Below, piece by piece: positions 26,443 through 63,480 of a DNA stretch of 64,000 bases (positions within the stretch are counted from its first letter, which is position 1; the number at the start of each line of letters is the position of its first letter). The position numbers were made by a program, and so were the translations under genes. The DNA is from Amyelois transitella (Eukaryota > Arthropoda > Insecta > Lepidoptera > Pyralidae). The DNA is taken from the NCBI RefSeq assembly GCF_032362555.1, contig NC_083516.1, positions 8,891,001 to 8,955,000 on the forward strand, in the 5' to 3' direction. The notes under the pieces were generated by a model. It saw nothing but the letters and a program-made list of their open reading frames with translations, did no database searches and had not been told where the DNA came from.

Positions 26443-26592
26443 GTTATTTATATTTATATGCTTACACTATAAAAAACGAGCTAGATAAACAGTAAACGCG
26501 CACTAAAACGACGACACTTTTTCTTTGTAATTTTGTATAATCGCAAAGTCATTGACGACCTCTCAGAAATTATTCGTAGACGCGGACTAGAC

Positions 26593-29988: not shown

Positions 29989-32900
29989 ATGGGTCCTAAG
30001 CCGCCTCCACCTCCAGGGCCTCCCCCGCCGCCAGGACCACCGCCTCCTCCGGTTTTTAGTGGAAATTCGAAAACATCTTCGTCAGATAATCGTGGTGCCT
30101 TGTTAAAAGATATAAGACAGGGTGCGAAATTAAAAAAGACTGTTACTGTGGATAAAAGTGGACCATATATACCAGGGAAGGTGTCAAATGTGTCAAACAG
30201 TGGTTCAGCAGTTGGAAATGGTGTGCGGAGTGCAGCTCCCATGCTGAATGGTGGTGGTGGGCCGCCGGGACTTGGAGGACTGTTTGCAGGGGGGATGCCA
30301 AAGTTGAGGCCCACTGGGAAATTGACAGGTTTGATATTCATAATTCAAACATGTACTTATCAATCCTTAAAAAATGTTAACTGGGCTGGGTTGCAATTAT
30401 TTTCATAAATACATATTATTATAGACTATAAATGAGTTATATAAATGAGGTACTTTAAAATAAGGTATTTTTCATAATGAATCACTAAGAATGAGTTTCA
30501 ATTTTACTTATAAAATAGGTAAATGTGCTTTGTCGTTCCCTGCACCAATATAAAATAATAATAACACTCCATCTCTTTCCCATGGAAGTTGTAACAGTCA
30601 ACTAAAGGATGGGCTTATAAACTTAGGATTCTTCTTATAGGTGATGGAGGAGCAACCTGTTACTATTTGAATCTCAATTCTATTGTTAAGCCTAACAGTT
30701 GAAGATGTCCTGTCAGTCTTTCAAGACTACTGGCTCTGTCTGCCCCACAAGGGATATAGACGTGATTATATGAATGAATGAAAATAGTTAAATAATTTTG
30801 CATTCATATATTTGGTAATCTTGTCCAAAAACGGTCTACTTTACCATAATAGAACACTGGTATAGGTTGGGATATGAGAAAAACTATAAAGAAATGAAGC
30901 AATGTTTTTAATGCCAAAGATCATTACAAACTTTTTTCTTATTATAACTAAATAGTAAGATCAGTCTGTCAGTTTATTATAATTAATTATCTCTTTAAGA
31001 GGAGGAGGATGATGAAACCAGGTCTAACTAAGCAAGTATACAAGGGTAGTTGCGAATGAGAAAGTTTGAGTGGTAATGCTAGACAAACATACATATTTTG
31101 ATCAAATCAGGGTTCTGGAAAAAGTAAGGTCAATATTACCAGAAACCAAAAGCTTGAATGAAGAGAGTTATGAATGTGGATGAAATGAAAGATTGTGAAA
31201 AATTGAGAAACAGGAAAGAAGACTTCTTTTCTACACTTAAATTTTCTCCACATATTATTTGCACTATCTGCTTTTGTCATCAAAGCTCTGGGTCTTTAGC
31301 CAAATCTTATAACTATGTCATTTTTATACTTGTAGTCTACATTCTAAGAAAATTTTTATACTTGTAGTCTACATTCTAAGAAATTACTTAAAATAACCAT
31401 ATTAAATAGTATAATTAGTATTATCTCTCACCACTATGATACTAAATTTTGGGCTAGCTTTATCTATGTGGATTCTTAGATCCTTTTACTTAATAAAATA
31501 TACTAAGTAAGTAGTTTCTAAACAAGCAGCAGTACATGGTATTCAAATTAAAAATCATGATGCAAATGTTCAAATTCTACATTGGCCTCACAAATTTTTG
31601 ATTTTTCTTAAGTTTTTGTTTCATAATTTTTTTTCAAGCATCTTATGGTGAGGAAAACCATCTTGAGTAAACATGCAACTGAGTGTTACCATGAGCCAAT
31701 ATGTATAAGGTTCCCTTCGAAATGTTATTGCAGTTAGACAGAAGTTGCTTCATGTAAAAACTTGACTTACCTAATCCAGCATCTCGATCGTCACAGCAGA
31801 CCTCACTCTCCTTTCTAGAGATTTGATGGTGCAACCGCACTAACGCCAGGAGAATGATCACAGTACATACATACATATGATCACGTCTTTATCCCTTACG
31901 GGGTAGACAGAGCCAACAGTCTTGAAAAGACTGATAGGCCACGTTCAGCTGTTTGGCTAAATGATAGAATTGAGATTAAAATAGTGACAGGTTGCTAGCC
32001 CATCGCCTCAAAGAAGAATCCCAAGTTTATAAGCCTATTCCTTAGTCGCCTTTTACGACATCCATGGGAACGAGATGGAGTGGTCCTATTCTTTTTTTTT
32101 ATTGGTGCCGGCAACCACACGGCATGCGTGATGCACATGCGACATGACCACAGTAACTAACAACTATCCATTTTACCAGGCACCACGCCAAACGGGGTGA
32201 AAAGCGACGCGCCCCGCTACCCCCCGCCGCAGCAGCCCCCACAACCGCCGCAACCTCACAAGTTCTCCCCAGAGAGGTTCAGGCCTGGTATCCCACCAGC
32301 TCCGCCGGGCAATGTCAGCAGTCTCTCAGCGGCGTTGTCTGAAGCCATGGCGGCCAGGGAACCTCCCTCCAGGGAACCTCCCGCCAGGCCCCCGGTTAAA
32401 CGACAGCCAAGTGATATAAGGACAAGGGGGCCGCCGCCGCAGCCGCCCGTGCAGAAGTCACCGATGCCTTTGGTGAGTCCATATTATTAGCATTCTACAT
32501 ACATAATGTATATCACGTCTTTATCCCATTCAGGTTACATCTAATCGTAAAGTATTTTTGGAGACTCATCAGTCTCTAAAAGAACATCTTTAAACCCCCT
32601 AAGGTAATAAGTCTGTAACAGACACCTGAGGGTCACTTTCAGCTGTATGGGTTGTTAGGCCATCCATATTATACAATCGTAAGCTCGTAAACCTTGATCG
32701 ATTTGATTTAACTGGTACCTAGATAATGTTTTTTCGTCGCTACTAGGCTACCATGGAAGTTTACAGTAGATTCATTCGTTCATATAATCACGTCAATATC
32801 CCTGGCGGGTAGATAGAGCCAAATAAAATACCCCAAAAATTCCATTCTATTGCGATAATTTTGATATCTCGTACACACCCTTAAAACAATATGTTTATCA

Positions 32901-41900: not shown

Positions 41901-44900
41901 TGTTTATGTTATATATATTTATGCTTTGTATTTTATTGTATACGTACTGCGCCAATCGACTTTCTATTCTTTAGTTTCCTCCCACCCTAACGTTGACTGG
42001 AAATGATTGCTTTAGCGATAAGTCCGCCTTTGTACCTCATAACCTGTGTTTTTCATTTCTTATGGTGCATATAAATAGTCAGCTATCAGTATATGAGTAA
42101 TTCATGGGTTTACCTAGTGACCTCTTGTTGTCTTACTGTTCACTTGTTCATGTGTGATTCACGTATTATCATATAAAGGTCCTATTACCACAGAATACAT
42201 AATATATTACTTAGAATAACTTGACACATAACTTAGTTTATACGACCATTTGACTCATAAGATGACTCATTTACAGGACAAATCAAATGAAAACTGGTTT
42301 GTTTGTGACAGAGTTATTTAATTGCTATATTCATGATTCACACTAAGGAAATCATGTAAAGTAATAACTTTTCGAGCCGGGACTACTATCAGGAATGAAA
42401 TAAAATAATAAATAGAAATAATGTTACCTGTTGTACGTAAATAAATAAATTTACTACGGTAAAATTTTTTTTTGTCTTAATTCATTTGTTTGTTTATCTT
42501 TTATTTTACGAGACGTTATAACTTAGTTTATATATACTACTACATCTATATTCTGTATCAGATTCATTATCAAGTGATAATTCTCAGAGAATGTAACTAG
42601 TAGGTAGGTATAGTATTTTAACTTCTTATTCCCGAAATTCCTTCCAAAACGAAAAACAATTGAATAATTTTACTGGCCAAAATTACATAAAATCAAGTCT
42701 ATCCTATACCTACGGGGTAGATAGACCTAAGGGTCTCGACTACGCGATGGGTTACGAAGCTAGAAAATAGCTTTGTAAAATTTTCAATTGTACTAAATTT
42801 TATATCCCTAATTGACCCGACGGAGACCTTTCTATCATCACATTCAATCATAACTCTGTTACAATTATGTTTAAGAAAGTCAAGAAAGACTCTTATTTAT
42901 TTTCAGAGCTCATCAGACTCGGTGTTGACCGGTGGTTCGATATCCGATCGCATCACCAGCTTACACCAGCAGCAATCTGAGCAAGCGATACCGCAGCATG
43001 TGGTCAGCACGCTGCATAGAAACAAGAGCTCCTTACACTCTGCCGGCCAGGGGGCGCTTGGTGAGTCACATTCTGATATGATCATCAACATTTCCGATGT
43101 AGAATCTCCACTGGTGAACAAAGGCCTCCCTCAATGACTTCCACTTCGCTCTGGTGGAGGCGCGTACAATAATTTATCACCGAAATTAGTACTGTTGCCG
43201 TGGTATTTGTGAAAACAAAGAAAATCTTTTTATCTTGCTCTGCGCCAACGCCAATCTTCTGTTTGGTTTACATACACCCAAAGGTTGACTGGAAGAGATT
43301 GCATTAGCGATAAGTCCGCCTTTGTACCATCTCTGTCTGTTTTATGTTGTTTTATATGTTTTACTCTTATGGTGTAATAAAGAGTTTTATCTATTCCACG
43401 AGCGGAAGTGCAGGCAAAAGCTAGTGCATCTATAAATAAAGATAGGTATAGATTATTGTATCAAATGAAGGCTGCCTGACCAGTCAAGTGTATTAAGGTT
43501 TTCTTCACGCCACAGTTATCTCTGTGACACGCCCTGGACAAACGTCATAAAATGTGTACGTACCTTTATTTACGCTAAATATAAAATTTTAAGATATAGA
43601 TTCATTTATGGTTAAAATGGAGCAATTTTAAAGACTAAAAGTTAAATTAGTGTGATTTCCATCTGTTTAAGTGAGGGAACATTACGTGAGAGATCTTGCA
43701 CATTGAGGCAACTGGATGTGAAACCATGAACTAACAGGTTCCTCGGCGTGGTTGCGGAGGTCAGAAGGGAGATGCTTCATATCACATCACAGGCAGACCC
43801 AGGGTTCTTCTTTAGAGATCCAAGGACGCAACCCTAGGAAGGTGCCAAACACTATGATTCAAATGAGAAAAGACCAACCAAATATTAAGCAAATATGTAT
43901 ATCCACGCGATACATTATTTGCATTATTTATACAGATTTTTAATCATAATCATTTATTTCTTGAATATGGTTACAATGTAGGTCTTAAGTATTTAGGTAC
44001 AGTTTCTGTGAACACATATTCTACCTCTTAAGGTGTCGGAATTATATACATATATATTTTAAATAAGCAAGTATTAATCTTCTATACGTTTAATTTTTGG
44101 ATGGTTTTCAACGATGTTTTGTAACAGAAGGCTTTGATATAATTAAACATACATACATACATACATAAAATCACGCCTCTTTCCCGGAGGGGTAGGCAGA
44201 GACTACCTCTTTCCACTTGCCACGATCTCTGCATACTTCTTTCGCTTCGTCCACATTCATAACTCTCTTCATACAAGCTCGGCGGTTTCGGGTACTTTTG
44301 ACCTGACCCTTTACCAGGACGTCCTTAATTTGATCAAGATACGTTCGTCTAGGTCTTCCCACTCCGACCTTTCCCTCCACACTCTCCTTGTATATCTGCT
44401 TAGTCAACCTGCTTTCATTCATCCTCTCCACATGACCGAACCATCTTAACATACCCTTTTCTATTCCTGTAACTACATCTTCTTTCACATCACAACATTC
44501 CCTTATCACGCTGTTCCTTATCCTGTCACTCAATTTCACACCCATCATACTCCTTAACGCTCTCATTTCCACTGAATTTATTCTGCTTTCATGCTTCTTT
44601 TGCCATACCCAACTTTCACTCCCATACATTAATGTCGGGACCAACACGCCCCTGTGCACAGCCAGTCGAGCCTTTTTGGATAGTTTCTGACTGCTCATAA
44701 AGGCATGCAAAGCTCCATTCACCATGTTCCCCGCGTTCACTCTCCTTTCAATATCACTATCATACTTGCCATCTGATGTAAACTTTGATCCTAGATATAC
44801 AAACTCTTTCACTTGCTCCACTTTTTCTCCTCCAATCAAAATATTACATGCTGTCATTTCTTTCTCCATTTCAAAAACCAGTGTTTTAGTTTTACTTACG

Positions 44901-47900
44901 TTCACTTTCATTCCTTTCTCTTTTAAAGCTTCATGCATACAGTTTACCATCTCCTGTAACTCCTCCGCTGATGACGCCAGTATAACCTGATCGTCGGCAT
45001 AGAGCAGACATTTGACGAGTAACTCATTCATCCTTAATCCACTTTTAGACTCTTTCAAATCTGTCAAACAGCTATCCATAAATAGGTTGAACAGCCACGG
45101 TGACGCAACACATCCTTGCCTAACGCCTTTCTCAATCTTAAACCACTCAGTGTGCGCTCCGTTTATCCTGACACAAGCACTCGAATCCTCATATAAGGAT
45201 TTCAGTGCTCGTATTAAGAGACTGCTCACCCCATGCATAGAAAGTGCTGACCACAATTCATTCCTCTCAACTCTGTCATAGGCCTTTTCCAGATCTACGA
45301 ATGTGCAATAGACTTTTTGACTCTTGGCCAAAAACTTTTCGGCTATGCACCGCAAGGAAAAGACCTGATCAGTACATCCCATTCCCTTTCGAAATCCCGC
45401 TTGAGCATCCCATATTTTGTCATCAGTTTCATTCCTGACTCTATTAATCAATACCTTAGCATACAATTTGCCGACGACGCTAAGCAGGCTTATACCACGA
45501 TAATTTTTGCAGTCCAGCTGTGACCCTTTTCCTTTGTAAAGTGGCACGATAACAGCCTTACACCAATCTTTTGGTACTCGGCCGCTTCTCCAACACAAAT
45601 TGAAAAGGCAGTACAACTGACTAGCTACTACGCCTTTTCCTGCTTTAAGCATCTCGACCGACACTCTATCACACCCAGCAGCCTTTCCCGCTTTCATACT
45701 CTTAAGTGCTTCCACAATTTCGAACATTTCAATTTCGCCTTCCATCTCATTCTCTTTTTCTTCGCTATAGCAGAAATCTTTCTTATTTCCTTCCTTTTTT
45801 TCAAATAAACTTTCAAAATAGTCCTTCCATATCTTTAGTACACATTCTTCTCCTTTCACAACGCTACCATCCTGGCATCTGATCCTAGTCAGCTCTCTGG
45901 TTATAGTATTTCCTCGGGCTGACCTTACGGATTTCCAGAATACTTTCAGATTTGACTGAAAGTCTTCTGATAGCCTTTTATCAAAATCCTCTTTATACTC
46001 TTCTTTCTTTCTAATCACAGCTTTCTTAACCAAATCTTTCATTTTCTTATATTCCTTACGTGCTTCATTCACATCTTCATCTATAACCTCTTGCATTCTT
46101 AAGTTAGCTTTTGCTGCTAACAAATCCAGCCATGCTTTCTTCTTTAATCGCACAAGTTCTTGCACATCTTTACTCATCCACGCATTTTTGTGATTTTTTC
46201 CTTTCCTTCTTCTACTTACACCACACACTTCAACAGCTACTTTCACAATTCTTTCTTTAAATTCCTTCCATCCATCTTCAATATCGCTCATTTCATCTAA
46301 ATCTTCAAATTCATCCTTCAGTCTATTAATATACTTCTTACCTACATCCATATCTTGCAAATTTTCTACTTTTACTCTTTCTAAAGCTAATACTTTTACT
46401 CTTTCCAAATATAATTAAAACATCCTAATTACACCATCATCAGGTTGCTAATTGACCTAGCTCTGCAGTTTCGCCAGTTTTTAGCGAACGAAGCACATTG
46501 TCGATCGTTTTGTTAGCGAATTTTTGTGGTTGATTCCAAAAAGTTTATTTAGTGTTTGTCCTGTTAACTAATGTGTTATTTTGGATTCCCATATTGTCAT
46601 TTCGGTAGGAGAACTTGTTACTAAATCTGTATGTTAAAACTTAAATATGCAATGCGTGTGGTGCGAACAATTATAGGTGGATTTTAAAATTAGATCTTAC
46701 GTGTGTCTAATGGTATTTTCAGTCTGTAAAAAGAGCATATTGCATTCAGATAAATTTTAGTCTAAACTTCATATATAAATCGGGTATTTTAAACTACGGT
46801 TCTTTACATAATCCATTTTAAAGTATGCCAATTCGAACTTCAAGGGTAATCCGCTCATGGGTTTTTTGTAAGTGTAAAATGACTTAAATATTCGGGCACA
46901 TTTTCTTTAGTAAACTCTAAACTCTAAAGTTCTAACTCTTTAACTATATTCGTATAAGTATTAAAAAAAATAAAAGTATTAAATGTATAAAAAAAAAGTA
47001 AAGTGATAAATAAAGTTTCAAAAATCCTCTGAACTCCTTTCAGGTGGCAGTATGACGTCACTATCCTCCGCGCCCCCCACCCCCACTCCGGCGCCGTCAC
47101 TATCCGCCTCGGACCTTTCGGAGCGGCCTCGACTCAGCTACGGAAAGCCCAACTTGGCTCCGAAGCCCCCAGCGTTGGCCGCGTCGCCAGTCACTGAGAA
47201 ACCTTCGCCGCCGTTGAAGAAACTCATGATAAACGGGAAGGTAGCCTCCAGGACGCAGAGCATGAGGGTGCCAAGGTAAGTGAGGCTTTATCCTGGTAAA
47301 TAATATTAATGACCAGCGCAGAAGTTACCTCAATTCCGCTTTGTAAAGTCCAAATTGCCCAGGTAAGCACGATGTCCATAAACGATGCAATTTGACAGGC
47401 AGACTATATATATAGATAGTACAATCTTCGTTAAATGTTTGCACGTCATATTAACTGTGCACTTCTGGGACGATAAACTTTAGGTTTTGGATCATCGCCA
47501 AGAGATACGAACATCGAGATTTGAATTAAAAAGTTGGGAATGCAAAGGGAATGCGATATGATAGAGTTTTTCTATAAGTTGTACTAATTGTCTCAAACGT
47601 GTGATAGGTACTATCGCGATTATGACGCAGTGATAAAATGAACAGATTAAGATAAAATAAGCCAAACAGCTGAACGTTGCCTATAAGTCTTTTAAGACTG
47701 TGGCCCTGTCCAACCTGAAAGGGATGAAGACGTGATTATATGTATGTATAATGTGTATGTATAGAAAAAATCGAACAGCTGCATTTGTTGTTAGTAAGTA
47801 TATAAATGTTTTGAATAATGTTGAACTCGACGATAATAAACTGATTTTCGTTGTATCCCTAATAAATAATGATTAAGATTCATAAATAACACTTTTGTCA

Positions 47901-50900
47901 GTTTATATTTTAATGTACTAGGCATAAAAAAAATCTTACAGTGCCCTAAATTTTTCACATCTTTCTTCTTTCGACAAGGCACGGTTTTATACAAATTGAT
48001 AGTTAGTCTCTGCCTACCCCTCCGGGAAAGAGGCGTGATTTTATGTATGTATGTATGTATGATAGTTAGTTTCCATATTTTTTTGGGCATTCTTTAGATG
48101 AAGAATTCAGACTGAATTTAAATTTGAAGGGGAATTGTAGGCCGGTAGGTATCGTGTGACTTTACTCGTAGAATTACTAAGAATTGTATATAAATGTATT
48201 TATTTAAACTTCATTGCATAAAATACAATTGGCGGACTTAATGCTAGAAGCATTATTCTACCAATCAACCATTGGCTCTGACAGGGAACTTTATGTGGGG
48301 TCAAACAAAATATATTTATACCTACACAAAATATAAAATAAAATAATTATAAAAAACATTCATAAAAATACAATAAATAAACAATATATATAAATAAATA
48401 GGTGCAGCAACTACCGAAATGAGTGAAAAGAATTATAGTTATTAAATACGACTCGAGGAGATAAATAAATTTGTGTTGGCAACATAATACTTCATTACCT
48501 GGGCTATTCTAATGTATTTCCAGATCGCCTCCCGTGTCCCCGCCCTCCCCCCAGCCGGGCGGTATGACGTCGCGCGGTAATCTGCCGCCGACGCCTGTGC
48601 ATCCTCCCATCGGCACAAAAGTACCCGCAAGTCATTTCGGTCAGTTTGATTTTTTACTTTCTTGTTGACTTTGTGTTGGTGTTAATAAAAATTTAAACAG
48701 TGAATGATATGGTGGTAACATCATTCATTGCTACCAACCGTCTAAGTTTCCATAGTTTTTAGGTGTGGCGATATTTTAAATATGATACTTGAATTGGTTC
48801 AATTAAGGCCAAAATAGGTTAATGTGAAAGCTTTTAAGTGAAAATGAGGGTGAGGAATACTCAAGCCATTTACCTCTTGTTGGAATCACTTATTTTTTCA
48901 TTGTTCCCAGGCACCCTCCGCGCGCCGCGTGGCCTGCGTCCACCGGGCGTGTCCCCCCCTCCCCCTCCGCCGGGCGCGCCCCCTCCCCCTCCTCCGGGCG
49001 CGCCGCCGCCGCCCCCCCCGCCGCCCGCGCGCAACCAATCGCTGGCCGCGCCGCCGCCGCCTCCGCCGCACCACAGGCAGAACGTGAGTTACTTCAAACA
49101 TAACTGTCACACCATCACCATAACACCATCTTGTTGTAGTGCATCGGAGCGACGACTTCTATCATCACTACAAACATAGTGTCATTACCATCTTGTTGTA
49201 GTTGACATCGGAGTGACAGAAGAGCCGTCGCTCTCCGCATCGTGAAGTAACCTAATAGATCGAGAGAGATGTCAACGATCGTAAATAGTTTAGTTTCTTT
49301 ATACAGGGTGGCTTTTAATTCAACTGCATAAATTTAACTGTTAAGTGTACTCATCCAAAGGATATTTAAAAACGTTAAAAGAAAAATATCGGTTCATATT
49401 TCAGAAAGTACGAAAAAAAATAAAAATATCAAAATCCACGATCCTAAATAGCGTAAGATTCAGAGGTCAACGGCACAATTCATTCAGCTGAGCGATCTCG
49501 ACAACTCTGTACTTTACTTGATCTTGATACTAGAAAAATAATTTATTTTTCAGACATTTATTTACATGTTTTGTTTTAATTTCTTTTTGTAGTATTGGTC
49601 TTTAATAAAGCGTGTGACGTAGTTTTTGAGGGTTTTTTAAATGTGAAAATGATGAGGTTTAATTTAAATAAAAATAGGCTCAAACAGCTCAGAAGCATGG
49701 GTATAGTCTATGTTAAAAAGGATGCAGTTGTTTTAAATGTCACCCTGTATAGTTTTACACGTGGATATTTACTCTCAAGATAAATCCCGGTTCTAATCTT
49801 CAGTCGAATCTTGGTGGTAGAACTACCTAAGTGTTAGACCTCTGGATTAATATTTGCAGAGTATCCAAAGCATGAACGGCGAGGAGGCGGCCCCCGCGCC
49901 GCCCGCGCGCGGCTCGTCCATGTCGGGGCGGCTGGAGCTGGAGGCGCGGTTCGCGGAGCTGTTCCACCCGCCCGCCCGGTTCCCGCCGCCGGACCCCTTC
50001 CTCAGGATCACTAAGGGGTACAGCAGCACCTCCGTCGCTGGTAAGTAGGAATCGGTAAAAGAATCGGGGGGGATTTTATGTATGTCTTATCTTTCCTCTC
50101 GATAATATTGGTCAAGTGGTTTAGTGTTAACAATTTTTTAAGGCCCATCCGTATTATACTCCAATTCAAAACGAACGAAAATTCAATATAATAACGACCT
50201 TATTATAAATGCATTAAATTTGAAATCCAAATACAAATGCTATCTCGCTTATAATAGTATACAGCTTAGATCGCGGGTTTTAATAACGCGCGCTAATAGG
50301 CTTAACGGTGCAAATGTTTTCGCGCCGCGCGCAAAAATTAAAATTTGCGCAGGTATATCTGCGTGACAAGTGGCATTACAGTAAACTGGTAGAGAATGCT
50401 ATGCATTAAGGTCCTTTTACACATTTATTTTGTTCAATAAAGTTTAAAATAAATAAAGAGAGGAAAGATATGGCCATATTGTAACGCTCGTGAATAAGGC
50501 CTGCTGGTATTAAGAAAGTGTGCGCGATACTGTGTAAATTTAATCAAATTTGAAAAGTGATCAACATTTTTATTTTACCAAGAACCAAACTGACCAACAC
50601 CTATACCGAGGCAAATGTAATTGAAATATATTTTTTTAGGCATATACGTACAAAAACTTATTTTTACCTACATAGTATCGCGCACACGTAAACAATGTTT
50701 GTACGAAAGTTGGTCACAGCTGCTTTAGTGATTTATATTATATATATAAAAAAATAACCAGTTAATTAAAGGCGACATCTAATTTTACTAAATGAATACT
50801 ATTAAAATATCTCAACTGGAAGAAAATGCTATTTTAGCTTAAATCAACTTGTGCATAGAACTTTTGTTTATTGTTAAAATAATCTTGTATATCGATGTGT

Positions 50901-53841
50901 AGACGTGCTACCATAATGATATACTTACCTTATATTTCTCACAAAGTGTCTTATAAAATTCGTCATAGACGAATTCTTATCAAGTTTCGAAATAGAAATG
51001 TATTTTAAAATTTACTTAGTGGATATTATTTCGACTGAAAGTAGCGATTTATTTAAAATAAGTTGATTTTCGTATTGTAATTAGCTTCGATGTATAGAAG
51101 AGCAACGCACATATGCTCTCGAGTAGTCATATATTCATTAAATATAGTATTATATACCTTTTAGCTTTATGTGTAAGTGCAATAGGTACAAGTCAAGAAA
51201 AATGGCATAATATTTAAGTATTTTGTAGTGCGTAGGTAGAGTACTGTATGAACCAAAATTAAGTTGTTCACTGGGAACTATTGTGTAGTTAGATGATTGA
51301 TTTTTATTTCTATATTCGGTGCATGAATGCATGTTGAAAATGTCTTCATATCTCAAGTGTCCTTAATTTTAGACTGAATAGATTTTGAGATAAATGTTTT
51401 AATTTAATATTTCAATACATACCCACATCAGGTTATTTAATAGTCCAGTATTCTTTATACATATTTTATTTGCTTGCCTTATTGTGGCCTTAAAATTCTT
51501 TGGAAATAAGGTCACAGAAATCGGCCAATCAGTATTACAGGTTGATTTCATACATATCCGCTTTAGCTGAAAATAAATCGTATTGGGTAGGTGTTTTTAT
51601 ACAATATATATATATATATATAAAACAATATCAATTTGAGGTAATGCTCTCCATTGATAGTTCTTCTATTGGTTTTTTTAAATACACTAATTTGTGGGGA
51701 ACATATTGCATTTACGGAGAAATAAATTAATTCCAGGTAAACAAAATACTTGAAACTTTATTCATAGCAAAGTGTTTCCGCATTTGTTCACTACCACACT
51801 GCATTCATTTACACGTCCCATTGGCTGGTCACATAAAAAAACCATTCTCGAAGCAATTTGAACCATAACAAATCATTCCAATTCAGTCATCTAAAACCAA
51901 ATTCTCTATTTTGTACTTTATTTATTTCCAATTATTCTTCGCTAATTATATTGTTAGTTTAGATTGAACGGAATGTTAAATGTTTAATGTTGAGTCATTA
52001 CTGTAATACCTAGTATCTATTTTAGTTTAGTTAATATAAATTGTAGGCGACTTTACACGTATCAAATATGCTTTTTCTTATGTAAAGTATTACATTTATT
52101 TTTTATGACAACTTGTCTTTAGTAACCTGTAAGTTTATCTTTCTATTATTCCCTGTATTTTTGCCCAACGGATTTGATACGCGTAATGCCTCTAAACGCA
52201 ACATAAGACAGATTTTGACGTATTTATTCTTCGATGGAACTCTCGTTGTGATCATTTAATATAGTGAGGTGCCATTTACTGCAGAATTCAATGTTAAGTG
52301 ACGGCTTGTTATCGAATATTTCACATTACATTATGCTTTCACTAAATGGCTTAATTTGCCGCTTGAAATAAAAAAGATTTGCAGTTTTGACGGTAAGGTT
52401 TTTTATTTGCAGTTTTTATGCCTATCTGTCAGATAAGATGTGTGAAAAAAAATTTGCTAGGGTACATTCCAGTTGGTATCTTGTTTAGAAAATTTACATT
52501 TCTGTGGAACGATTATATAAGTATAGGAGCGATATGACAACTACTTATATACTTTTGGCACCTTATCTGGCTTTTGGTATATTTTCTTTATCACGCGTTC
52601 TAAGGCATTTAGTGAAGCGCGTCACACGCTTATGTTGAAGAAACAGGTATTGTGATAGTGATGTGTACGAAGCTTAATATATATATTATTATTTTTTATT
52701 AATAAAAGAGTAATTATTATTGACCAGTTGTCCAGTATTTCATTGTTTAACCTATTTATTTATTACATTTGTCAGCTTATTCGTGACGTCTATGCTTTGA
52801 AGGGTAATTAAATTTAATTTTGATATTTAAAACGAATTATTTTATCAACTTATAGTAATTTAGAAAAAGGTGGTTCTAAATAAGACTGAACTGCGTACGA
52901 TCGCATGTTATCGTGGGTAAGTGTATTTTGTTACATTATGCATGCCATTTTTACTAAAATATGACAGGGTTTATATATATTTGTTTGATGGATTCATATA
53001 CGTGCAAGTTTATAAATGCCCTGTAGTAATTTTCATTTCCGTATCCATATATAAACTGTCAAGGTTCTGCCTACACAGGAACATACACTTAGTCATTGTG
53101 TTTTTTTAGTTCCATAAAAATTTAAATATATTCTTATTTTCAACTGGTTTCTTTGATTACAAAGATGTATGTGTTATTTATGTATTAACATAAATAAATA
53201 TTCAGAGCCATCTTTATAAAAGCAGTTACCTTGCAGTTGATATAAAAATGCACCCAACTAGCATAATCATTGCATGCTTATGTCATATGGCACGCAGCAT
53301 GCACGCTCCAGACTAACCTCGCATTAAAACACTTTGATCTTCTATATCTTAGCGATACTTGTAGGTTACATATAAGGATTTTTTTAAAATCTGTAACAAT
53401 ACTACCAGATTAATAAACATAATTAGGGCTAGATCGAAATAAAAACATTGCGCTTTCAAGCTAAATGATCATAATCTTGTAAATACTCATTAATTTTTAA
53501 CTAAAGGTCAGATCGAATAAATCTATGTTACTGTTATCAGGCACCTAACTATGTCAGTTGAGCAATGTACTAAAAGATACATACATACTTTAAAAATATT
53601 TTAGCGTAACTGTGCTCTATTGAGGAACTGATTATGTCCTGTACTTACCACTTTTGTTCGATCCGATACAAGATTTCATTAATTTACCAACTCGACAAAA
53701 ATATTACATGGTGTCGAGTATCTTTTATATGCCATGTTAGTGATGTATCTGTTTGTGGTGACAGCGAGCAAGGCGCAGGCGCCGCCGCCGCCCCTGCGCG
53801 TGCCGCTGACGGGCTGGTCGGGCACGTCGTCGGCGTGCTAG
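29989..53841 (+). CDS. Vrp1: Verprolin/WIP (WASp-interacting protein), 8 exons, 521 aa
   Basis: Exons: 29989-30328, 32180-32472, 42907-43060, 47044-47275, 48524-48639, 48911-49083, 49860-50040, 53765-53841 (TAG at 53839). All are GT-AG, phases agree, total 1566 nt. The start is MGPKPPPPPGPPPPPG, a profilin-type polyproline run, then a WH2 actin-binding motif with LLKDIRQGAKLKKTV (~residues 38-55). The middle is proline rich, with long polyproline runs in exon 6. Exon 7 encodes the WASp WH1-binding segment, ARFAELFHPPARFPPPDPF. The family member length fits (human WIP 503 aa). Known role: binds and stabilises WASp and promotes Arp2/3 actin assembly in the cytoplasm; the fly homologue acts in myoblast fusion. 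Intron 2 is 10.4 kb and holds many transposons. The frame continues after the stop, described separately. Confidence 0.92.
30562..30780 (+). mobile_element. SINE copy (RTE-tailed family B), 5'-truncated
   Basis: Runs from CACTCCATCTCTTTCCCATG to GGGATATAGACGTGATTATA with the usual central blocks. It is in WIP intron 1. Confidence 0.8.
31003..31225 (+). mobile_element. Decayed RTE-type LINE fragment
   Basis: Matches the element's last coding part (GTCTAACTAAGCAAGTATAC, then GAGAGTTATGAATGTGGATG) with many substitutions and small indels. An older copy, in WIP intron 1. Confidence 0.7.
31321..31383. repeat. 32-bp tandem duplication
   Basis: A 32-bp unit containing TACTTGTAGTCTACATTCTA occurs twice head to tail with nearly perfect identity, in WIP intron 1. 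Recent local duplication. Confidence 0.85.
31866..32124 (-). mobile_element. SINE copy (RTE-tailed family B), complete
   Basis: From GCCGTGTGGTTGCCGGCACC on the minus strand to CGTGATCATATGTATGTATG. It ends 55 bp before the acceptor of WIP exon 2. Confidence 0.85.
34305..34552 (-). mobile_element. SINE copy (RTE-tailed family B)
   Basis: Minus-strand GCCGTGTGGTCCCTGACAAT head, GGCGACTCAGGGGTAGG, GCGATGGGCTAGCAACC and GGCTTTGTCTACCCCACAAG blocks. It is in WIP intron 2. Confidence 0.8.
34659..34740. repeat. 82-nt hairpin, 28-bp arms with one mismatch
   Basis: Arms 34659-34686 and 34713-34740 are inverted copies differing at one base, around a 26-nt AT-rich loop. Each arm contains TTTAATTGCGG. 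It is in WIP intron 2. Confidence 0.8.
34948..35310 (+). mobile_element. tRNA-related SINE (family C)
   Basis: The head GGTGGTCCAATCGGTAAGAT and B box AAGTTCGAATCCCATC are tRNA-like. The body has GAGGGAAAACATCGTGCACA, ATTCGATCCAATACG and CTCCTCTCCAGAGTGGTGAT, blocks I know from lepidopteran SINEs of about 350 bp. It is in WIP intron 2. The head carries a small local duplication (CATCTTAC). Confidence 0.65.
35951..36150 (-). mobile_element. Degenerate SINE copy (family B)
   Basis: Minus strand retains CTGTCTGCCCCGTAAG and the CGTGATTATATATG end; the rest is weakly recognisable. Confidence 0.5.
36598..36715 (+). mobile_element. Degenerate SINE copy (family B)
   Basis: TCCTCTTATAGGCTATGTGC, TAGCAACCTGTCACTATT and CAGCTGAACGTAG are recognisable; the 3' end is degraded. 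Confidence 0.55.
37666..37835 (-). mobile_element. Helitron 3' end, degenerate
   Basis: On the minus strand it ends CCGGGCAAAAGCTAG followed by host T, the usual 3' terminus of lepidopteran Helitrons. The 5' limit is not clear. Confidence 0.5.
38551..38609. repeat. Perfect 28-bp hairpin with 3-nt loop
   Basis: Arms 38551-38578 and 38582-38609 are exact reverse complements, with the loop TGT. The arms contain GGGTAAAACCTTAAAAGGT. It is in WIP intron 2, not at the ends of a recognised transposon. Confidence 0.9.
39260..39442 (+). mobile_element. Short non-autonomous Helitron (second family)
   Basis: Starts TCACTACATAGTATAAAACA, ends GCGGGTCGCTAG, flanked by host A and T. The sequence differs from the 10283/23099 family. 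Confidence 0.7.
39826..39935 (+). mobile_element. SINE fragment (family B) with internal deletion
   Basis: CCCATCTCTTTCCTATGAT is joined directly to AAACAGCTGAACGTCGCC and then GGCTCTGTCTACCCCGCAAG. It is in WIP intron 2. Confidence 0.7.
41676..42075 (+). mobile_element. LINE 3' fragment (Jockey/R1-like ORF2 end and 3' UTR)
   Basis: A short frame encodes WNALPAYIRKAQ...FKDLVKSHNLSTLS and a stop (41733-41821). This is the common C-terminal signature of Jockey/CR1/R1-type ORF2 proteins (WN-LP, FK--L). The 3' UTR with GCGATAAGTCCGCCTTTGTAC follows. It is in WIP intron 2. Confidence 0.65.
43262..43395 (+). mobile_element. LINE 3' UTR fragment, same family as 41676
   Basis: Shares AGGTTGACTGGAAGAGATTG and GCGATAAGTCCGCCTTTGTAC with the fragment at 41676-42075 and ends in TAATAAAGAGTTTTATC. 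It is in WIP intron 3. Confidence 0.65.
44151..46408 (-). mobile_element. 5'-truncated RTE-like LINE with open reverse transcriptase frame
   Basis: A 745-codon frame (46408-44171) covers the reverse transcriptase (YADD at about 44990-45002) and C-terminal domain; the endonuclease half is missing. A (CATA)n tail is at 44151-44166. Target-site duplication ATATAATTAAACAT (44137-44150) against ATATAATTAAAACAT (46409-46423). The 5' junction has a short repeat encoding ERVKV twice. Protein identity to the 14148 copy is about 97-98%. It lies antisense in WIP intron 3. Confidence 0.92.
47655..47750 (+). mobile_element. SINE fragment (family B), 3' part
   Basis: AAGCCAAACAGCTGAACGTT through GACGTGATTATATGTATGTA. 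It is in WIP intron 4. Confidence 0.75.
48004..48061 (+). mobile_element. RTE-type LINE terminal fragment
   Basis: Only the last ~55 bp of the element: CTACCCCTCCGGGAAAGAGG, then (TATG)n. It is an extremely truncated copy. It is in WIP intron 4. Confidence 0.85.
49304..49747. mobile_element. MITE with CAGGGTG terminal inverted repeats
   Basis: The left end CAGGGTGGCTTTTAATTCAA and the inverted right end CAGGGTGACATTTAAAACAA match over about 28 bp, both flanked by TA. It is 444 bp with no complete transposase and fits a Tc1/mariner-type non-autonomous element. It is in WIP intron 6. Confidence 0.75.
50370..50455 (+). mobile_element. LINE/SINE 3' tail fragment
   Basis: ACTGGTAGAGAATGCTATGC, a TCCTTTTACACATTTAT stretch and CAATAAAGTTT match a tail also seen near 41183-41240. 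It is in WIP intron 7. The rest of this intron (50456-53764) shows nothing I can identify. Confidence 0.5.
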
Positions 53842-54819
53842 CGCGCGGCGGGGGCGCGCGCCCCCTGCCCCTCGCCCTCCCCCGCGCCCGGCCCCGCGCC
53901 CGCCGCGCGCTCCGGCACGCCGCACCTGGCGCCCGGCGGGCACCCCGCGCACGCGCTGCTCTCCGTCGCCAACGCCCTCCTCTGCCCGGCCAACACCGTC
54001 GCCAAGAAGGAAAAGACGGACCTCACAGTCCTCCCGATAGAAGAAATCACGATGCCCGAGGAGGACGTCAGCGACCTGAGAGACGTGGTCGACGCGATCA
54101 ACAAACTGTGCGAGACGATGAAGACCTCCCAATATGATGACGCGGAAACTTATGAAGAGGAAGCGGTTCCTTCTGAACCTGCACAAGCCTTCGATATTGA
54201 TGAGGAATCTGTCGTCCCGCAGTACGCGGCGTCCGTCGCCGACGAGCCAGAGGAAGAGGCGGTTTATGTTTATAGAACTGAAGCGACCGTCGTCCCCCAA
54301 TACACGGAATGCCACACGGATTTGATCAGCCCGCAGGAAATATCTGTGCGGAAAGTTGAAACCTATGCGGAACAGATCAGCCCTGAAGAAACGTCGTCTC
54401 AGAGAGTGGAAGCTACGTTCCAAGCAATGGAAGCTTATCGCCCGGAGAGATGGAGTGATTCTCAGATATCACTGCCTGGTCAGACTGAAGACGTCGAGAC
54501 CGTGACGTCCGACACCGAACCGGCGGCCGCGCAGTTCGAACCGATAAGCGAAATGTACTACACGGCCTCGTCAGAAGTGTCTCTTCTGTCAGATTTAGAT
54601 GTACCTGACAGAGCCCACGTCGACGAGGAAACTTTGCCTGAAAAAGAGACTAAAGATGATAGAAAAGAATGTGTGATAGCGGGCCACGTGGCTGCCATGA
54701 GGGAAAGATTCGAGAGTATGACGCGTGCCAACACGCCGTGTCCAGACTTGATGAGGTCTATGTCGCCTTCTCTAGACGTCTTCAGGAATATCACTCCCTC
54801 GCCTGATCACTTAGGGTAG
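53842..54819 (+). CDS. In-frame 325-codon extension downstream of the WIP stop
   Basis: The WIP frame ends TGC TAG at 53839-53841. The same frame is open for 325 further codons to the TAG at 54817-54819. The first ~35 residues are Pro/Ala/Gly rich (GC-rich DNA, where openness alone means little). From about HPAHALLSVANALL the sequence looks protein-like: helical and acidic (PEEDVSDLRDVVDAINKLCE), with Tyr/Glu-rich repeats, then a Ser/Thr-Pro rich end (TRANTPCPDL, SPSLDVF, ITPSPD). No known domain is recognised. Possible routes to translation: UAG readthrough (next base C), giving a ~847-aa protein; alternative 3' splice sites at 54028 (CACAG) or 54040 (GATAG), both in frame with exon 7; or separate initiation at the ATG at 54052. 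That it is coding is likely; the mechanism is open. Confidence 0.6.
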   Translation, partial: RAAGARAPCPSPSPAPGPAPAARSGTPHLAPGGHPAHALLSVANALLCPANTVAKKEKTDLTVLPIEEITMPEEDVSDLRDVVDAINKLCETMKTSQYDDAETYEEEAVPSEPAQAFDIDEESVVPQYAASVADEPEEEAVYVYRTEATVVPQYTECHTDLISPQEISVRKVETYAEQISPEETSSQRVEATFQAMEAYRPERWSDSQISLPGQTEDVETVTSDTEPAAAQFEPISEMYYTASSEVSLLSDLDVPDRAHVDEETLPEKETKDDRKECVIAGHVAAMRERFESMTRANTPCPDLMRSMSPSLDVFRNITPSPDHLG

Positions 54820-56905
54820 GTAGTCAATCTTTCCAGTGTGTTCCGATGGTTCTTTATTATAGCTTAGAGGTGTATTGTGAAAGGTTTTATAATGTGGTAA
54901 TCAGTATTTGTGTAAAGTTACTAGTCCTCGTCTTACTAAACACCAATTTATAGAAACGTGCCAAGATGTTTATACACTCTTAGATAAACGGTTGTGATTA
55001 TTTTCCGTAGCTACATCTGATCGCAATTAACGAAAAGGTATACATATCGAGTGTTTAGTTTTAGTATTTGTTGGCCATTTTGAAGGCAATAAAGGATTGT
55101 AGAATTAGGTAAAGGCTCTACTTAGAGCTAGATATGTAATCATGTATGGAAACTATGATGCAAATAATATCCCATGTTATTAAGTGATTTTGGACGCTCA
55201 AATTTTGTAGTTTTGTAACTATTACATTGTCATAACTTAGTAACATGTAACAAATATACGTCGTCTATTTCAGACTTAAGTAGCTAATGGAAAATTGTTT
55301 TCTCTGTATTAAATTAATTTTAATTGTAAGAAATACAATGGATGCAGCATTCTCAAAAATGTTATCCGAAGACAGAAATTGCACCTTACAAAGCAAAAAC
55401 TTAGCGGTCTTTTTGTAAATGCCTATCATCATCTATCTGCACACTTTTTGACACTTGCTGTATTCATTTTTGATTATAAACAGTAATTAATCTCTTTACT
55501 CGCTTTAAAATTCCAGATTATAATAAGAATACATTACGAGAAAGTTTAGCATTGTTTGTTGCATTTTTCGAAGTTGCCATAAATACAAGGTCCACATGAA
55601 TTGAGTACAAATATGGCAAGACAGATTAAGGTCGCACTCATTTTGAGACATTACTTTGATAATATTTGTACTTAATTTGTGCAGATTTTAATAGTTTTAA
55701 GAGCACGTTAATTTTTGTTGTGACAATTTTTAGCGTCATGTTTATTTTTGAAATTATCTGTTGTGAATTTTCTACCAAAATATTTTAATTGGGTTGAAAT
55801 ACTTTACCGTGATACTAGTAGATACGAATACGATTATTTTTAAGTCTGTTGTATTCCGCGTACTTACTGTAAGGGTTTGGTATTGATATTTCTTCATTCT
55901 AGCATAGCGTTGTATTAAAATGTGTTATGTGTACAGATGGAACCTTTTATTATTGTAATTCAATATACAGCTTTATTAAAATGGTGTTTTTTTCATTTAT
56001 TAAAAGTACTTGTGAGTCGAAATGAAAGATATAAGATCTAATGTGATAATGATAAACTATATCATTAAGGATCGAATAGATGTCAGATCAACCGACAGCT
56101 GTGGCGCCTCTGGCTTCAATATTATATTAAATCACTAGTGCGCTGATGTGGTCAGATCAACTGACAAAGAAGAATCCTCAGAGTGGGTAGGGTTATAAAT
56201 TACTAACATGAAATTTATAGAAAGAACAAACGAGATGAGCGTTTAAGGGTTCGTACATTGTGGTACATTAATGAGAGCTATGTACCTACTTAGATTTTTT
56301 CTTGTAAACGGATGTCAAATCCGACGAAGGCCTTTCTCGTATGAATGTCAGATTAACAAATACTGCATCCTGCCCACGTAGCATGGTAATATCGCCGTTT
56401 CGCTTATTATTATGACGTGAAACGGGACAGCGATAGTTTTTCGCGCATGCTAGGCTACACCCGCTAGTATTGTTCCTTACCCAACCAAAATATTGACGTG
56501 GTTTAGATTTCAGATAGCGTAGACGTGATCTCCGAAGCTTTCTGAATAATCAGACCTGAAAAAGAGTTTTGTATTCCAACTAGAAATCGCTTCTGAGTAT
56601 AGTACTTTTTGTATTAAGTAGCGATTGAACGGGTCTTGAACCGACAGCTTTGATGTGTGTCGTGGAAACGAACCGACGAGTCGTTATAGTGATAATGATT
56701 TCTTTTCAGTTCATACACATCGAAATCGAAAAATCTAGTACATAGGTCCAAACTATTCTATTCGCTAATAGTCTATCGCACCAATTTGAGAAAAAACGAA
56801 GTGTAAAGAAGTGTTGTTACCTTTTACAGAATTAAGTCGATTCAAAATGGTTCTTAACGTATTGATTTTCTTTATTTCTCGTAATTGGACCTTATGTGAA
56901 CTGGG

Positions 56906-58622: not shown

Positions 58623-61600
58623 CTACCGGAAGCGCGGCTGCATGACCGGCAGCCCGGGCACGCCGCCCGGGAACACGGCGCCCATCGGCACCACGCCGCC
58701 CGGCAGCAGCATCCCTGCGACACAAGGCGCGTTACGCGGGCCCGAGGGCGGCCACGGGACCGCGGGGCGGCCGCGGCCCCGGCCGGAGACCACTCGGTTC
58801 AGGTGCAGTATAAGCATAGGAACACAGGTAGGTAGGATAAATAATTCACATGAAAAAATCACACTTTAAAATACTCGGCGATGTAATCGTATTCGTAGTC
58901 ATGCATGTTCAGTGTGATCCGAGACTGTTGCTCGTGGAATCCAATTCAGCCAACGACTATTAACTCGTTCGTTTCATGCACATTGTAAAGCGACAAACTA
59001 CTGTACGTAAATATAATATTAGTGTACCCACCCGTGAAACCGACAAAAAGTCATTTTTTATAATGACACTACGAGAAAATCGAGACAGTAATAAGATAAG
59101 AGCTACTACAATAAGCAAATCCATTAACGAATGAGAATAAAATTACCGCTCATATATTCCGATGCTCGTGCGGATGGCACATCAAAATCACAGTTTTAGC
59201 TCTCGGTAGTGTTGGCTAGGAGGTCGGCCCGGAGGCCGTGTTAGTGGGTGTTAGGGAATGAGTATCGACAAGCTGTTATGTGTTTATCTTATGAGATGAG
59301 ACAGAGATTATGCCGGTCTCCGCACGCTCCAGTGCTTTGCTTATCATATAGAGTAATACAAGAGGCACCCACCGAGCGCTCCTTAGCCGGAATCCGCCTT
59401 CGGCATTATGCGTATAATCGCAGAGCTCGACCGCGCTCTTAAAACATAATCCATTTTTACAGACAGTGATTAAATACAGCTAGTTCAGTTACCTTCAGGT
59501 TATTCGTCGTGGAAAATAGAAAAATGGTAAGTTTGCATTATTACAATTTATTCAAAATAATCAACACAATCACTCCCATTTTCCACGTGGATAAAGAATA
59601 CTACATTATGAAAAACTAATGTGTATCTATTGAGCAAAAATTCCATTGAATTTAGTCAACACACATTACAGTTGGCAGAGTTCAACCGCTCTATATTAAC
59701 CTTAATAAATGCATTAATAATACTGTGTCATTAAACATTGGTACTTTGAAATGTTATCCTAACACCAAAATTTCATCGGAATTATAAAAAATATGGACGA
59801 ATAGAAATATGAATCGACACCTATTTTTCCATCATTAGAATGTGATAACCAGTCTTTTAAACATTTCATAAATAAATTCATGTTGTACACATTATACAAA
59901 ATTTAACGCGTTTTGGATCAAGTAACATCAAAAATACATTTTTTCACATGTTAAGGTGACTGTTGTCGTTATGCGACATCAAAATAACAAATGTTATACT
60001 TATATCCTAACTCCTAACCTATGATATTAAGACTTGAATGATTAGAATACATAACACTGACTATCGAAGTTTTTCTAATAAGGTTTGCCAGAAAGGCCAA
60101 AGACAGTTGTAGACACCATGTCAAATTTGATATTATTATACAAAACACACAAATGAATGGAATATAACGATAGCAATCGATATCAAACTTCGTGGATCAC
60201 CTAACAGTTGGCGATATTTGCAAATTGTCGATAAAAAAAATGTGTTGCATCACCTTGATTGTTCAACCTATTCATGGATAGTTGTTTAACAGGTCGGAAT
60301 TGGTATAGATGAATGAGTTACTCGTCAAATGTTTTCTACGCTGACGATCGGGTTATACTCCATATTCTCGTCCCAAAAATTGTCAATTTCCTCTTATTTT
60401 AAAACAGTGAAAAAAAAAAAATAAAGACCGGCTTAATTCCGAAAGACGTTAAATCTTTCGCTATCGTTAGACAAAAAAGTGTCAATCTTCACCTGAATTT
60501 GAATGAAATTTATAACTCGTTCAACATGTTGTTTACTGTTTTTTTTTTTTGTGTTTGCCTATTTAGATGTAAACTCCTCAACGCCATCTATCGACAATTT
60601 GCAAATAACAGTCCCCCTCCCCCTGTCTAACGGTACGCATAATGCGGGTAGTTATACTGACCGGGTTGTATGGGGCGCATGAGGTTGAACTGCGGCATGA
60701 CGGGCAACATGCCCATTACAGGCGGCATGGAGACGGGCACCCCCACTCTTACAGGCTGGAATCAAGTTGTTATACTTATTAGGGTGACTAACCGTCACAC
60801 ATTTATTTAATAACGTCGAATGGAAAATTACTATACCTACGGGACAAATTACACAGATTGAGTTAGCCTCAAAGTAAGTTCGAGACTTGTGTTACGAGAT
60901 ACTAACTCAACGATACTATATTTTATACTTATATAGATAAACATCCAAGACTCAGACCAATCAGAAGAAGTTCTTTTCTCATCATTAATTCATCAAAAAA
61001 GAGTAATTACTCTTTCACGTAAAAACTGGTGATTTTGAATTTTTATCATAAAATTTTCCATCAACGTAAGAGCATCAGAGAGGAATAATTACAATTTGAA
61101 CATACATACATACATATTGTCACGTCTATATCCCTTACGGGGTAGACAGAGCCAACAGTCTTGAAAAGACTGAATGGCCAGGTTCAGTGGCTTTATGATA
61201 GAATTGAGATTCAAATAGTGACAGGTTGCTCTAGCCCATCGCCTAAAAAAAAAAGAATCCCAATTTTGTAAGCCTATCCCTTAGTCGCCTTTTACGACAT
61301 CCATGGGAAAGAGATGTCCTATTCTTTTTTCATTGGTGCCGGGAACCACACGGCCACCAATTAAAAAAAAGGCAATTTGAAAGCTGCAGTGAACGCCATA
61401 CCTGCATCATGACCGGCGGCAGCATGGGCCGCCGCATGGCCGCCTGCTGGCGCGCGGCCGCCACCGCGGCGGACATGTGCGCCGCCACCTGCGACAAGTA
61501 CGACTGCTGCTACATCAAACATGGCCGCCCGCGGCGGGCGCGGCGCGCTGTACGCGGCGGCGGTGGTGGGGCTTTGTGATTTTGTTGTATTATATGGACG

Positions 61601-63480
61601 CTCGTCAAGAATGAACAGATGGTATACAACAGCCAGCAGAACACCCATATATGTATATTATACCATTGGTTTTTATCGTATACCGATATTTCCCCTATAA
61701 AAACTCTATATCACGGCCAGATAGATACTCGGTATTCTTTCTACGTTTTGAACGCCACTTGTAAAACAGACAAACTGATTTTGTTGTGACATTTCTATTA
61801 TATGGACGCTCGTAAAGAATGAACAGATGGTTGAACATAAAACAGGCCATATATATTATAGCATTGGTTTTTGTCGTATACCGATTTTTTCCCTATAAAA
61901 ACTCTATATCTCGGCCAGCTAGATACTCGGTATTCTTTCTACGCTTTGAACGGCGCTAGTAAAACAGACAAACTGTTATAACACTGATAATATAATACTT
62001 CAGAGAAGGGAGGCTCCTTGCATGACTTAGATACTGTTTTTACTTGAAGTAATCTTCTTATTTTTATTTCTATTATTATGAAAATTCTAAATGTTGAACT
62101 TTTTAAATTATAACTAAATCTCCACCACCTTGTGTTACATTTACTACAAACAAATTACAATAACAAATAGCCCAATATAATCAAAATTGGTGCCATGCCA
62201 CTATTACAAATTTCGTGGTAAATAAGTACATATGTAAAAAAAAACGACAAGTTACCATTTACATCATGCACTAAATAAAAACACTGAAAAACGATGAGAT
62301 ATATTGATTAATTAAAACTTGAAAAATCCATAAATCAAGTAGAAATAATAAATTCAACATAGATCTTCCATTTCAACAAAACATAATAAAATTAATCGTA
62401 AATCAGTAGATAATAATAGATCTGTACCTTATTTTCAACCTTAAAAAACTTTCGAATTAAATTGAGAAAAGCCAAATTCGTGTAAACCATAAATCTAAGA
62501 AGCAATAGATCTGTACCTTATCTTCAATATTAAAAAATAATAATCATAAAGATTTTTAAAAATTTAAATTATGAAAATAGAACAAGCCCCATTTGCCATA
62601 TTTAGACCGATAAATCACAAAAGCTTCTACCACCAACCTTTACCTTACACACATAGGATAATTGTTGACGAACTCACCTCCGCTTGGCTCGTGCTGGGAG
62701 TGATCATAACTGGGGCTGCTTGAGGTTGACTATGCGGAGCATCTGGTTTCGGTTTGGGACGATATCTGGGAGAATAACAGTTCAATTATTTATGGTAAGT
62801 TAAAACATCAGTTTTGGAATGTTTATTTATATCAACCAACATATGCAAAATTCAATTGTTCAAATTGCAAAGTTGCAGAGTGATAGAATTTTAGCAAAGC
62901 TTTTGTGACAAGCAAGAGAGGATCTTCACATACCCTTTGGTTCTGATCAAGAATTCAACAAATAAATTACCTACTTTAAACTAAGTTTACTGCAATTTCC
63001 AAACAGTCAGTGCAGGAGAACCGCTAACAAACTGCACGGCAGCATTTTCTTCAATAACGTCAACTTCAGAATTATCCAAACATAGAAATGTGGTGTGTAG
63101 AGAGGGAGAGCGAATGAGAGAGAGGGAGAGCGAATGAGAGAGAGGGAGAGCGAATGAGAGAGAATGAGAGAGAGGGAGAGCGAATGAGAGAGAGGGAGAG
63201 CCAATGAGAGAGAGGGAGAGCGAATGAGAGAGGGAGAGTGAATGAGAGAGGGAGAGCGAATGAGAGAGAAGGGAGAGCGAATGAGAGAGAGAGACAGCCT
63301 TACCTGGCGTTCCTGGCGCGCATCTCCTCGAGCGAGACGTCCTCGGGCGGGTGCACGATGCGGGAGCCCGCGCCCGCGGCCGGCACCAGCGCGCCCGCCT
63401 CGCCGCCCGCCGCCTCGCCGTTCTCGCGGGGCTCCGCGCCGCCCGCCGCGCCGCCCGCCGACGACGTCGTGGGCGGCGCG
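58623..63480 (-). CDS. BuGZ: BuGZ/ZNF207 homologue, 3' exons only (runs off the right edge)
   Basis: Minus-strand exons seen: 63480-63304, 62765-62678, 61506-61402, 60755-60662, 58714-58623 (stop TAG at 58625-58623). Phases agree. The first visible exon is Ala/Gly rich and ends with the Bub3-binding GLEBS motif, HPPEDVSLEEMRARNARYR, close to human ZNF207 (HPDEDISLEERRAQLPKY). After it come Pro/Met-rich segments (ending MQPRFR). In the known family the protein binds Bub3 and microtubules, assists kinetochore loading and spindle assembly, and also acts in splicing. The N-terminal zinc fingers must lie beyond base 64000. If the 60662 donor is not used, the exon reads on to a different stop at 60629-60627 (ending NYPHYAYR), giving a second C-terminus. 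Convergent with WIP. The 59.1-60.2 kb part of the last intron shows nothing identifiable. Confidence 0.85.
60255..60358 (+). mobile_element. RTE-type LINE internal fragment
   Basis: Matches the reverse transcriptase region around the catalytic site: TTGTTCAACCTATTCATGGA, ATGAATGAGTTACTCGTCAA and TACGCTGACGATCGGGTTAT. It lacks both ends and contains small deletions. It is in the last BuGZ intron, antisense. Confidence 0.75.
60838..60990 (-). mobile_element. tRNA-derived SINE (family A), 5'-truncated
   Basis: Matches the 3' two thirds of the copy at 23306 (GTGTAATTTGTCCC tail, AACACAAGTCTCGAACTTAC, TTCTGATTGGTCTGAGTC). The tRNA-like head is missing. In a BuGZ intron. Confidence 0.75.
61096..61354 (-). 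mobile_element. SINE copy (RTE-tailed family B), complete
   Basis: Minus-strand GCCGTGTGGTTCCCGGCACC to GGGATATAGACGTGACAATA with a TATG-rich tail. It lies 47 bp downstream of the BuGZ exon at 61506-61402. Confidence 0.85.
61578..61975. repeat. Tandem duplication, two ~199-bp copies
   Basis: 61578-61776 and 61777-61975 share GATTTTGTTGT, TATATGGACGCTCGT, AGAATGAACAGATGG, CCCTATAAAAACTCTATATC and AGATACTCGGTATTCTTTCT in the same order, with roughly 85-90% identity and small indels. In the BuGZ intron upstream of the 61506 exon. Confidence 0.85.
63105..63296. repeat. 18-bp GA-rich minisatellite next to a splice donor
   Basis: Units of GAGAGAGGGAGAGCGAAT are repeated about nine times with small variants. 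On the coding strand this is a long pyrimidine-rich tract starting about 10 nt after the donor of the BuGZ exon 63480-63304. Confidence 0.9.

Follow-up and report, generated by a model that had tools for sequence, protein, structure and literature searches.

Candidates for stop codon readthrough number in the hundreds in flies and mosquitoes (Drosophila and Anopheles; PMC5100048), and 851 have been reported in bumblebees, of which at least 306 are estimated to be functional (PMC7826183). On the figures in the available portions of these papers, the prior for readthrough in an insect is therefore not small. In Drosophila dfr/vvl, a UAG stop codon followed by C is read through into a second open reading frame (ORF), ORF2, of 286 amino acids; a peptide with Gln at the UAG has been found, the event is proven by mass spectrometry, by a tagged construct and with an antibody that recognises the extension, and a stem loop is predicted (PMC8417969). 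Conserved extensions in flies are read through at a median level of 5.2% (PMC3840789). For Lepidoptera, the authors of a genome paper say in its available text that they are unaware of the frequency of readthrough being documented (PMC10917498). Here we examine the WIP/verprolin gene of the moth Amyelois transitella, in a window of 64,000 nucleotides (assembly GCF_032362555.1, contig NC_083516.1, positions 8,891,001 to 8,955,000; coordinates below count from the first letter of the window). Its UAG stop codon is followed directly, and in the same frame, by a further 325 sense codons. A literature search at the level of titles and abstracts returned no report of WIP or Vrp1 readthrough among the matches listed.

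A long open frame behind the WIP stop codon

The gene is intact and lies on the plus strand, where eight coding exons (Table 1) join without a frame break to encode 521 amino acids. The N-terminal WH2 actin-binding motif matches PF02205 (expect value, E, 8.5e-11, residues 32-58), and among PDB sequences exon 7 aligns with the WASP-binding segment of WIPF1 (chain 9s9x_B, E 7.8e-4) and with the WIP part of 2ifs_A (E 0.021). By its predicted N-terminal WH2 motif and C-terminal WASP-binding motif, the gene is WIP/verprolin. One chain described as a 'putative transmembrane protein', 9tu0_D, outscored the WIPF1 chain (E 3.3e-5); its match consists of two stretches of about 36 residues with independent E of about 0.2 each, and was taken as compositional.

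The canonical protein ends in WSGTSSAC, and the last exon closes with TGC TAG followed by C, the TAG occupying 53839-53841 in the WIP frame as the original prediction had it. This position, some 25-30 residues past the WASP-binding motif, is what we take to be roughly the end of mammalian WIP, which speaks for an old stop. The claim that the frame is open past this codon also held: all 325 codons from 53842 to 54816 are sense codons, and the next stop is the TAG at 54817-54819. Neither AATAAA nor ATTAAA occurs within 53842-54819, so the tail is probably contained in the mature WIP mRNA, whichever route of translation is used.

The open frame falls into two parts of very different evidential value, each of which was compared with 2000 dinucleotide shuffles. 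In the first (53842-54003), where GC content is about 0.86, all 2000 shuffles were open, so openness is no evidence for coding there, in agreement with the earlier caution about this block; GC content peaks at 0.92 in the block after the stop. In the second (54004-54816), none of the 2000 shuffles was open and the other two forward frames carry 15 and 18 stops, which rules out a chance ORF. Among 27 stop-to-stop ORFs of at least 170 codons in 314 kb, the extension ranks 11th in length. Many of the longer ones look transposon-like by eye; besides the extension, four of the 27 were compared with Pfam.

The downstream part had been described as protein-like and acidic, and it is: the 325 residues of the extension include 63 Asp/Glu and carry a net charge of -38, a short Pro/Ala-rich stretch being followed by a long acidic tail. 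Neither Pfam nor PDB sequences gave a match better than E 0.4, pattern scans of viral and prokaryote contigs gave 20 and 557 matches, respectively, with no relative encoded at any of them, and a DNA search of the 327-Mb genome with 54052-54819 found only the segment itself. Internal protein repeats, sought as a built-in test of synonymous against non-synonymous change, were not evident in the extension, in which the best self-match (41) was reached by 27 of 200 shuffles. Modelled alone by AlphaFold without an alignment, the extension has a mean predicted local distance difference test score (pLDDT) of 43.8, and helices are predicted, at low confidence, for residues 35-47, 74-97, 186-197 and 271-296; such scores are weak evidence that the tail may be disordered. 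Long readthrough extensions in flies tend to be disordered and to have no Pfam match, according to the portion of the source available (PMC4999894), and the low pLDDT and lack of a Pfam match are compatible with this.

We propose, at about even probability, that readthrough of the UAG-C stop yields a C-terminally extended WIP. The last WIP exon would then encode two products from one mRNA. Ribosomes stopping at the UAG would produce the canonical protein, and a small fraction would decode this codon, perhaps inserting Gln as in dfr, and continue to the second UAG, giving an extended WIP of about 847 amino acids. The acidic tail, lying behind the WASP-binding motif, could tune the partners of WIP or its regulation by phosphorylation. 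More tentatively, and with some doubt, we consider it possible that this readthrough is regulated and conserved in Lepidoptera, and that it supplies a minor long WIP with a phosphorylatable tail, an undescribed layer of control on Arp2/3-driven actin assembly, within an insect order that has seen very little work on readthrough. Decoding of the UAG, its conservation and any function of the tail are here inferred from sequence.

Coding signal and stop codon context

The evidence that bears most directly on the block next to the stop is the composition of its third codon positions. In the WIP frame, third positions are G or C in all 54 codons of 53842-54003, compared with 86 of 108 other positions (Fisher 1.2e-4), and this contrast was matched by none of 5000 shuffles. 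In the less repetitive portion, 53923-54003, the counts are 27 of 27 and 37 of 54 (Fisher 4e-4), a contrast matched in any frame by 0.18% of shuffles. Third positions are G or C in 82 codons in a row (53766-54009), a stretch that spans the TAG, with 121 of 163 other positions G or C and 42 A or T (Fisher 9e-9); downstream of the TAG alone, the counts are 56 of 56 and 86 of 112 (Fisher 1.6e-5). The signal precedes the first ATG (54052) and, except in its two final codons, also the first AG past the stop (54006). Third-position purity across the TAG and ahead of this AG favours coding there, and thus readthrough over splicing past the TAG.

For the acidic part, a small codon-usage model was trained on about 1,760 codons drawn from the first seven WIP exons together with three ORFs presumed to belong to the host, one of which (10891-11460) has no Pfam match; the stricter form described below was also trained on exon 8 and 54052-54816. 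Over 54004-54816 the extension frame outranks the five others in each half, at 0.03 and 0.10 bits per codon against values between -0.26 and -0.47. In a variant of the model it scores 33.6 bits above its flat counterpart, with the other frames at -38 to -97, and in a stricter form, in which base composition was first fitted position by position, it scores -3.6 bits relative to flat and the other five frames are excluded by stops. The composition of this part is coding-like.

Several results weigh against readthrough. Within 53842-54003, three versions of the codon model give no preference for the WIP frame: in one it scores -1.82 bits per codon in a six-frame range of -1.71 to -2.14, and the other two rank an antisense frame best of six. 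Judged by coordinates, the third positions of that antisense frame coincide with those of the WIP frame, so wobble composition alone does not distinguish one strand from the other. In the first half of the block (53842-53922), taken by itself, the contrast is not significant (shuffles reach it in 12.7% of cases in this frame and in 36% in any frame), and the expectation that G/C content peaks at third positions, although borne out by WIP exons 7 and 8, fails on exon 6. Coding of the block in the WIP frame is therefore supported moderately, not firmly.

Readthrough potential is ranked UGA > UAG > UAA, and C after the stop may help, in the portion of PMC8417969 available. The suggestion that UAG-C is a leaky context stands as regards the favourable C, but the UAG of WIP itself is only of intermediate leakiness by this ranking, below UGA. 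The fold predicted for the 101 nt of RNA that follow the stop is very stable (-57 kcal/mol), but no more so than that of shuffled sequence (z +1.14; in seven windows, z -1.04 to +1.56), and a programmed RNA structure is unsupported. The motif CAGCAGCA, which is enriched in fly readthrough candidates according to the available text of PMC5100048, was not found in 53700-55200. The word Vrp1 does not occur in the main text of the fly and mosquito readthrough papers searched, whose supplementary gene lists may name it.

Other routes to the acidic tail

The five alternatives that we weighed are each unlikely, and are taken here from the best surviving to the weakest. The first supposes that the tail is a second cistron of 255 codons, translated from the ATG at 54052, either through re-initiation downstream of WIP or on an alternative transcript that begins within the GC-rich block. 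This ATG lies 210 nt past the TAG and is the first in any frame after the start of exon 8; it shares the frame of the tail and has A at -3, coding signal is at its clearest from roughly 54052 onward, and the codon model detects nothing before 54004. The third-position purity of 53842-54009 nevertheless suggests coding ahead of this ATG, and the match of its frame with that of WIP would be a one-in-three coincidence. We consider this reading unlikely, if the least so of the five.

The second, also unlikely, is an alternative 3′ splice site that joins exon 7 to 54029, 54041 or 54044, bypassing the TAG and giving WIP with its acidic tail in the absence of readthrough. As had been claimed, 53842-54003 contains no AG. 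The original prediction restricted a spliced route to the acceptors at 54028 and 54040 or to skipping of exon 7; both sites are in frame, but the AG within the TAG itself (53840-53841), 54043, and 54006, 54009 and 54015 were overlooked. Acceptors were scored with a rough matrix built from the seven WIP acceptors, whose own leave-one-out scores are 1.4 to 10.1, and were compared with 16,439 AGs in the 314 kb. The three phase-1 sites fit exon 7, and 54040 has 12 pyrimidines in 17 bases, within the range of 9-14 for the WIP acceptors. Their scores are nevertheless poor: -2.5 for 54028, -2.5 for 54040 and -5.4 for 54043, with 58.5%, 59.3% and 84.1% of AGs scoring higher. The phase-0 sites score -6.3 (54006; 89.5% higher), -8.4 (54009; 96.9%) and -4.1 (54015; 74%), and none of the six looks good. 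This route also leaves the third-position signal in 53842-54009 unexplained. The original alternative of readthrough or a hidden long isoform was sound as a pair; since third codon positions are without exception G or C across the TAG and as far as 54009, ahead of almost every usable acceptor, and acceptor scores are poor, the sequence leans to readthrough, which itself remains a candidate that the codon model does not support in the GC-rich block.

Third, and again improbable, the ancestral WIP could have been longer, the TAG having arisen recently by nonsense mutation or representing an allele or a sequence error; a single long protein would then be, or have been, the norm. A single substitution would be enough, third-position purity is unchanged across the TAG, and the block reaches the GC content given above; assemblies may err more in very GC-rich sequence. 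Against this, the TAG lies about where mammalian WIP presumably ends, and so looks like an ancestral stop.

Clearly less probable is use of the AG inside the TAG as an acceptor, by which exon 6 would be joined to 53842 and exon 7 skipped, the acidic tail replacing both the WASP-binding motif and the stop. The phase fit is exact, since an exon starting at 53842 suits exons 2 and 6, whose donors are phase 0, though not exon 7, and this splice would account for the coding signal from 53842 on. The site scores 1.19, near the 1.38 (leave-one-out) of the exon-8 acceptor at 53764, but 23% of AGs score higher, only 3 T and 9 pyrimidines are present in its 17 bases, the acceptor at 53764 sits 77 nt upstream, and the product would lose the WASP-binding motif.

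The weakest alternative, which we regard as very improbable, holds that the ORF does not truly end at 54819 and that a donor-like AGG|gtaggt at 54815, abutting the second stop, splices onward to make the tail an internal exon of a longer isoform or of another gene: only 5.2% of GTs score higher than this site, but such sites occur about three times per kb and three in 53842-55100 score higher (54478, 54569 and 54835), composition is AT-rich immediately after the ORF with AATAAA at 55088, and a scan of 59 kb downstream for phase-2 acceptors of at least 3.4 (about the top tenth) with at least 60 open codons, which shorter exons would escape, gave 13 continuations, none convincing, the seven longest of them lying at 68.9-71.8 kb in ORFs that are transposon-like by eye.

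Neighbouring features and comparison with known systems

The features of the gene and of its extension are collected in Table 1.

Table 1. Positions of WIP coding exons and of features downstream of the WIP stop codon in the window
Feature	Positions	Strand	Remarks
WIP coding exon 1	29989..30328	+	ATG; WH2 motif
WIP coding exon 2	32180..32472	+	leaves phase 0
WIP coding exon 3	42907..43060	+	
WIP coding exon 4	47044..47275	+	
WIP coding exon 5	48524..48639	+	
WIP coding exon 6	48911..49083	+	poly-proline; leaves phase 0
WIP coding exon 7	49860..50040	+	WASP-binding motif; leaves phase 1
WIP coding exon 8	53765..53841	+	TAG stop (53839-53841) included
GC-rich opening of extension, 54 codons	53842..54003	+	third positions 54/54 G/C; no AG inside
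Acidic part of extension, 271 codons	54004..54816	+	0/2000 shuffles open; highest of six frames by codon model
First ATG, all frames considered, past start of exon 8	54052..54054	+	extension frame; A at -3; candidate internal start
Second stop codon, TAG	54817..54819	+	overlaps donor-like AGG|gtaggt (54815|54816)
AATAAA, first canonical poly(A) signal past second stop	55088..55093	+	

Within the intron between exons 3 and 4 lies a 747-codon reverse transcriptase ORF on the minus strand (44171-46414; RVT_1, E 2.1e-41). Upstream of the gene, a 645-codon plus-strand ORF with a Dpy-30 motif (27152-29086; E 6.5e-5) ends about 0.9 kb before the WIP start codon, and a 429-codon minus-strand ORF (25180-26466) encodes the 26S proteasome subunit RPN6 (RPN6_N, E 3.3e-36; PCI; RPN6_C_helix). 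Two adjoining plus-strand ORFs at 8898-10082, with comparable frames upstream of the window, read as what we take to be a broken mariner-type transposase. On the other side of WIP, two minus-strand frames (58623-58865 and 63300-63512), one rich in Pro, Gly and Met and one with VHPPEDVSLEEMRA, have no Pfam match at E 0.01; they are reminiscent of a BuGZ/ZNF207-like protein carrying a GLEBS motif, and if so WIP would have a convergent neighbour.

Known members of the WIP/verprolin family (WIPF1; Drosophila Vrp1) share with the gene in the window a WH2 motif, a proline-rich body and a C-terminal WASP-binding motif. The moth gene would differ by its candidate 325-codon acidic tail, which has no match in Pfam, in PDB sequences or in the viral and prokaryote contig scans. 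If the proposed readthrough is real, WIP would join the insect genes whose C-terminus is set during translation in this way, and a tail immediately following the WASP-binding motif would offer a new lever on actin nucleation.

An in-frame second ORF and a cytosine after the stop are common to WIP and to the candidates for abundant readthrough in other insects, which are based on PhyloCSF across many genomes together with conserved stops, usually TGA, in the available portions of PMC5100048 and PMC7826183, whereas the WIP stop is TAG and comes from a single genome. The comparison with dfr/vvl, as far as it can be drawn from the available part of PMC8417969, is closer. Protein-level proof and a predicted stem loop exist for that gene, whereas the WIP extension is predicted from sequence, with RNA structure not beyond that of shuffles. 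Both have UAG-C, one long in-frame ORF2 directly after the stop (286 amino acids in dfr/vvl, 325 in WIP) and a C-terminal extension of a regulator. The WIP readthrough candidate would thus belong, at best, to a known class of event in insects.

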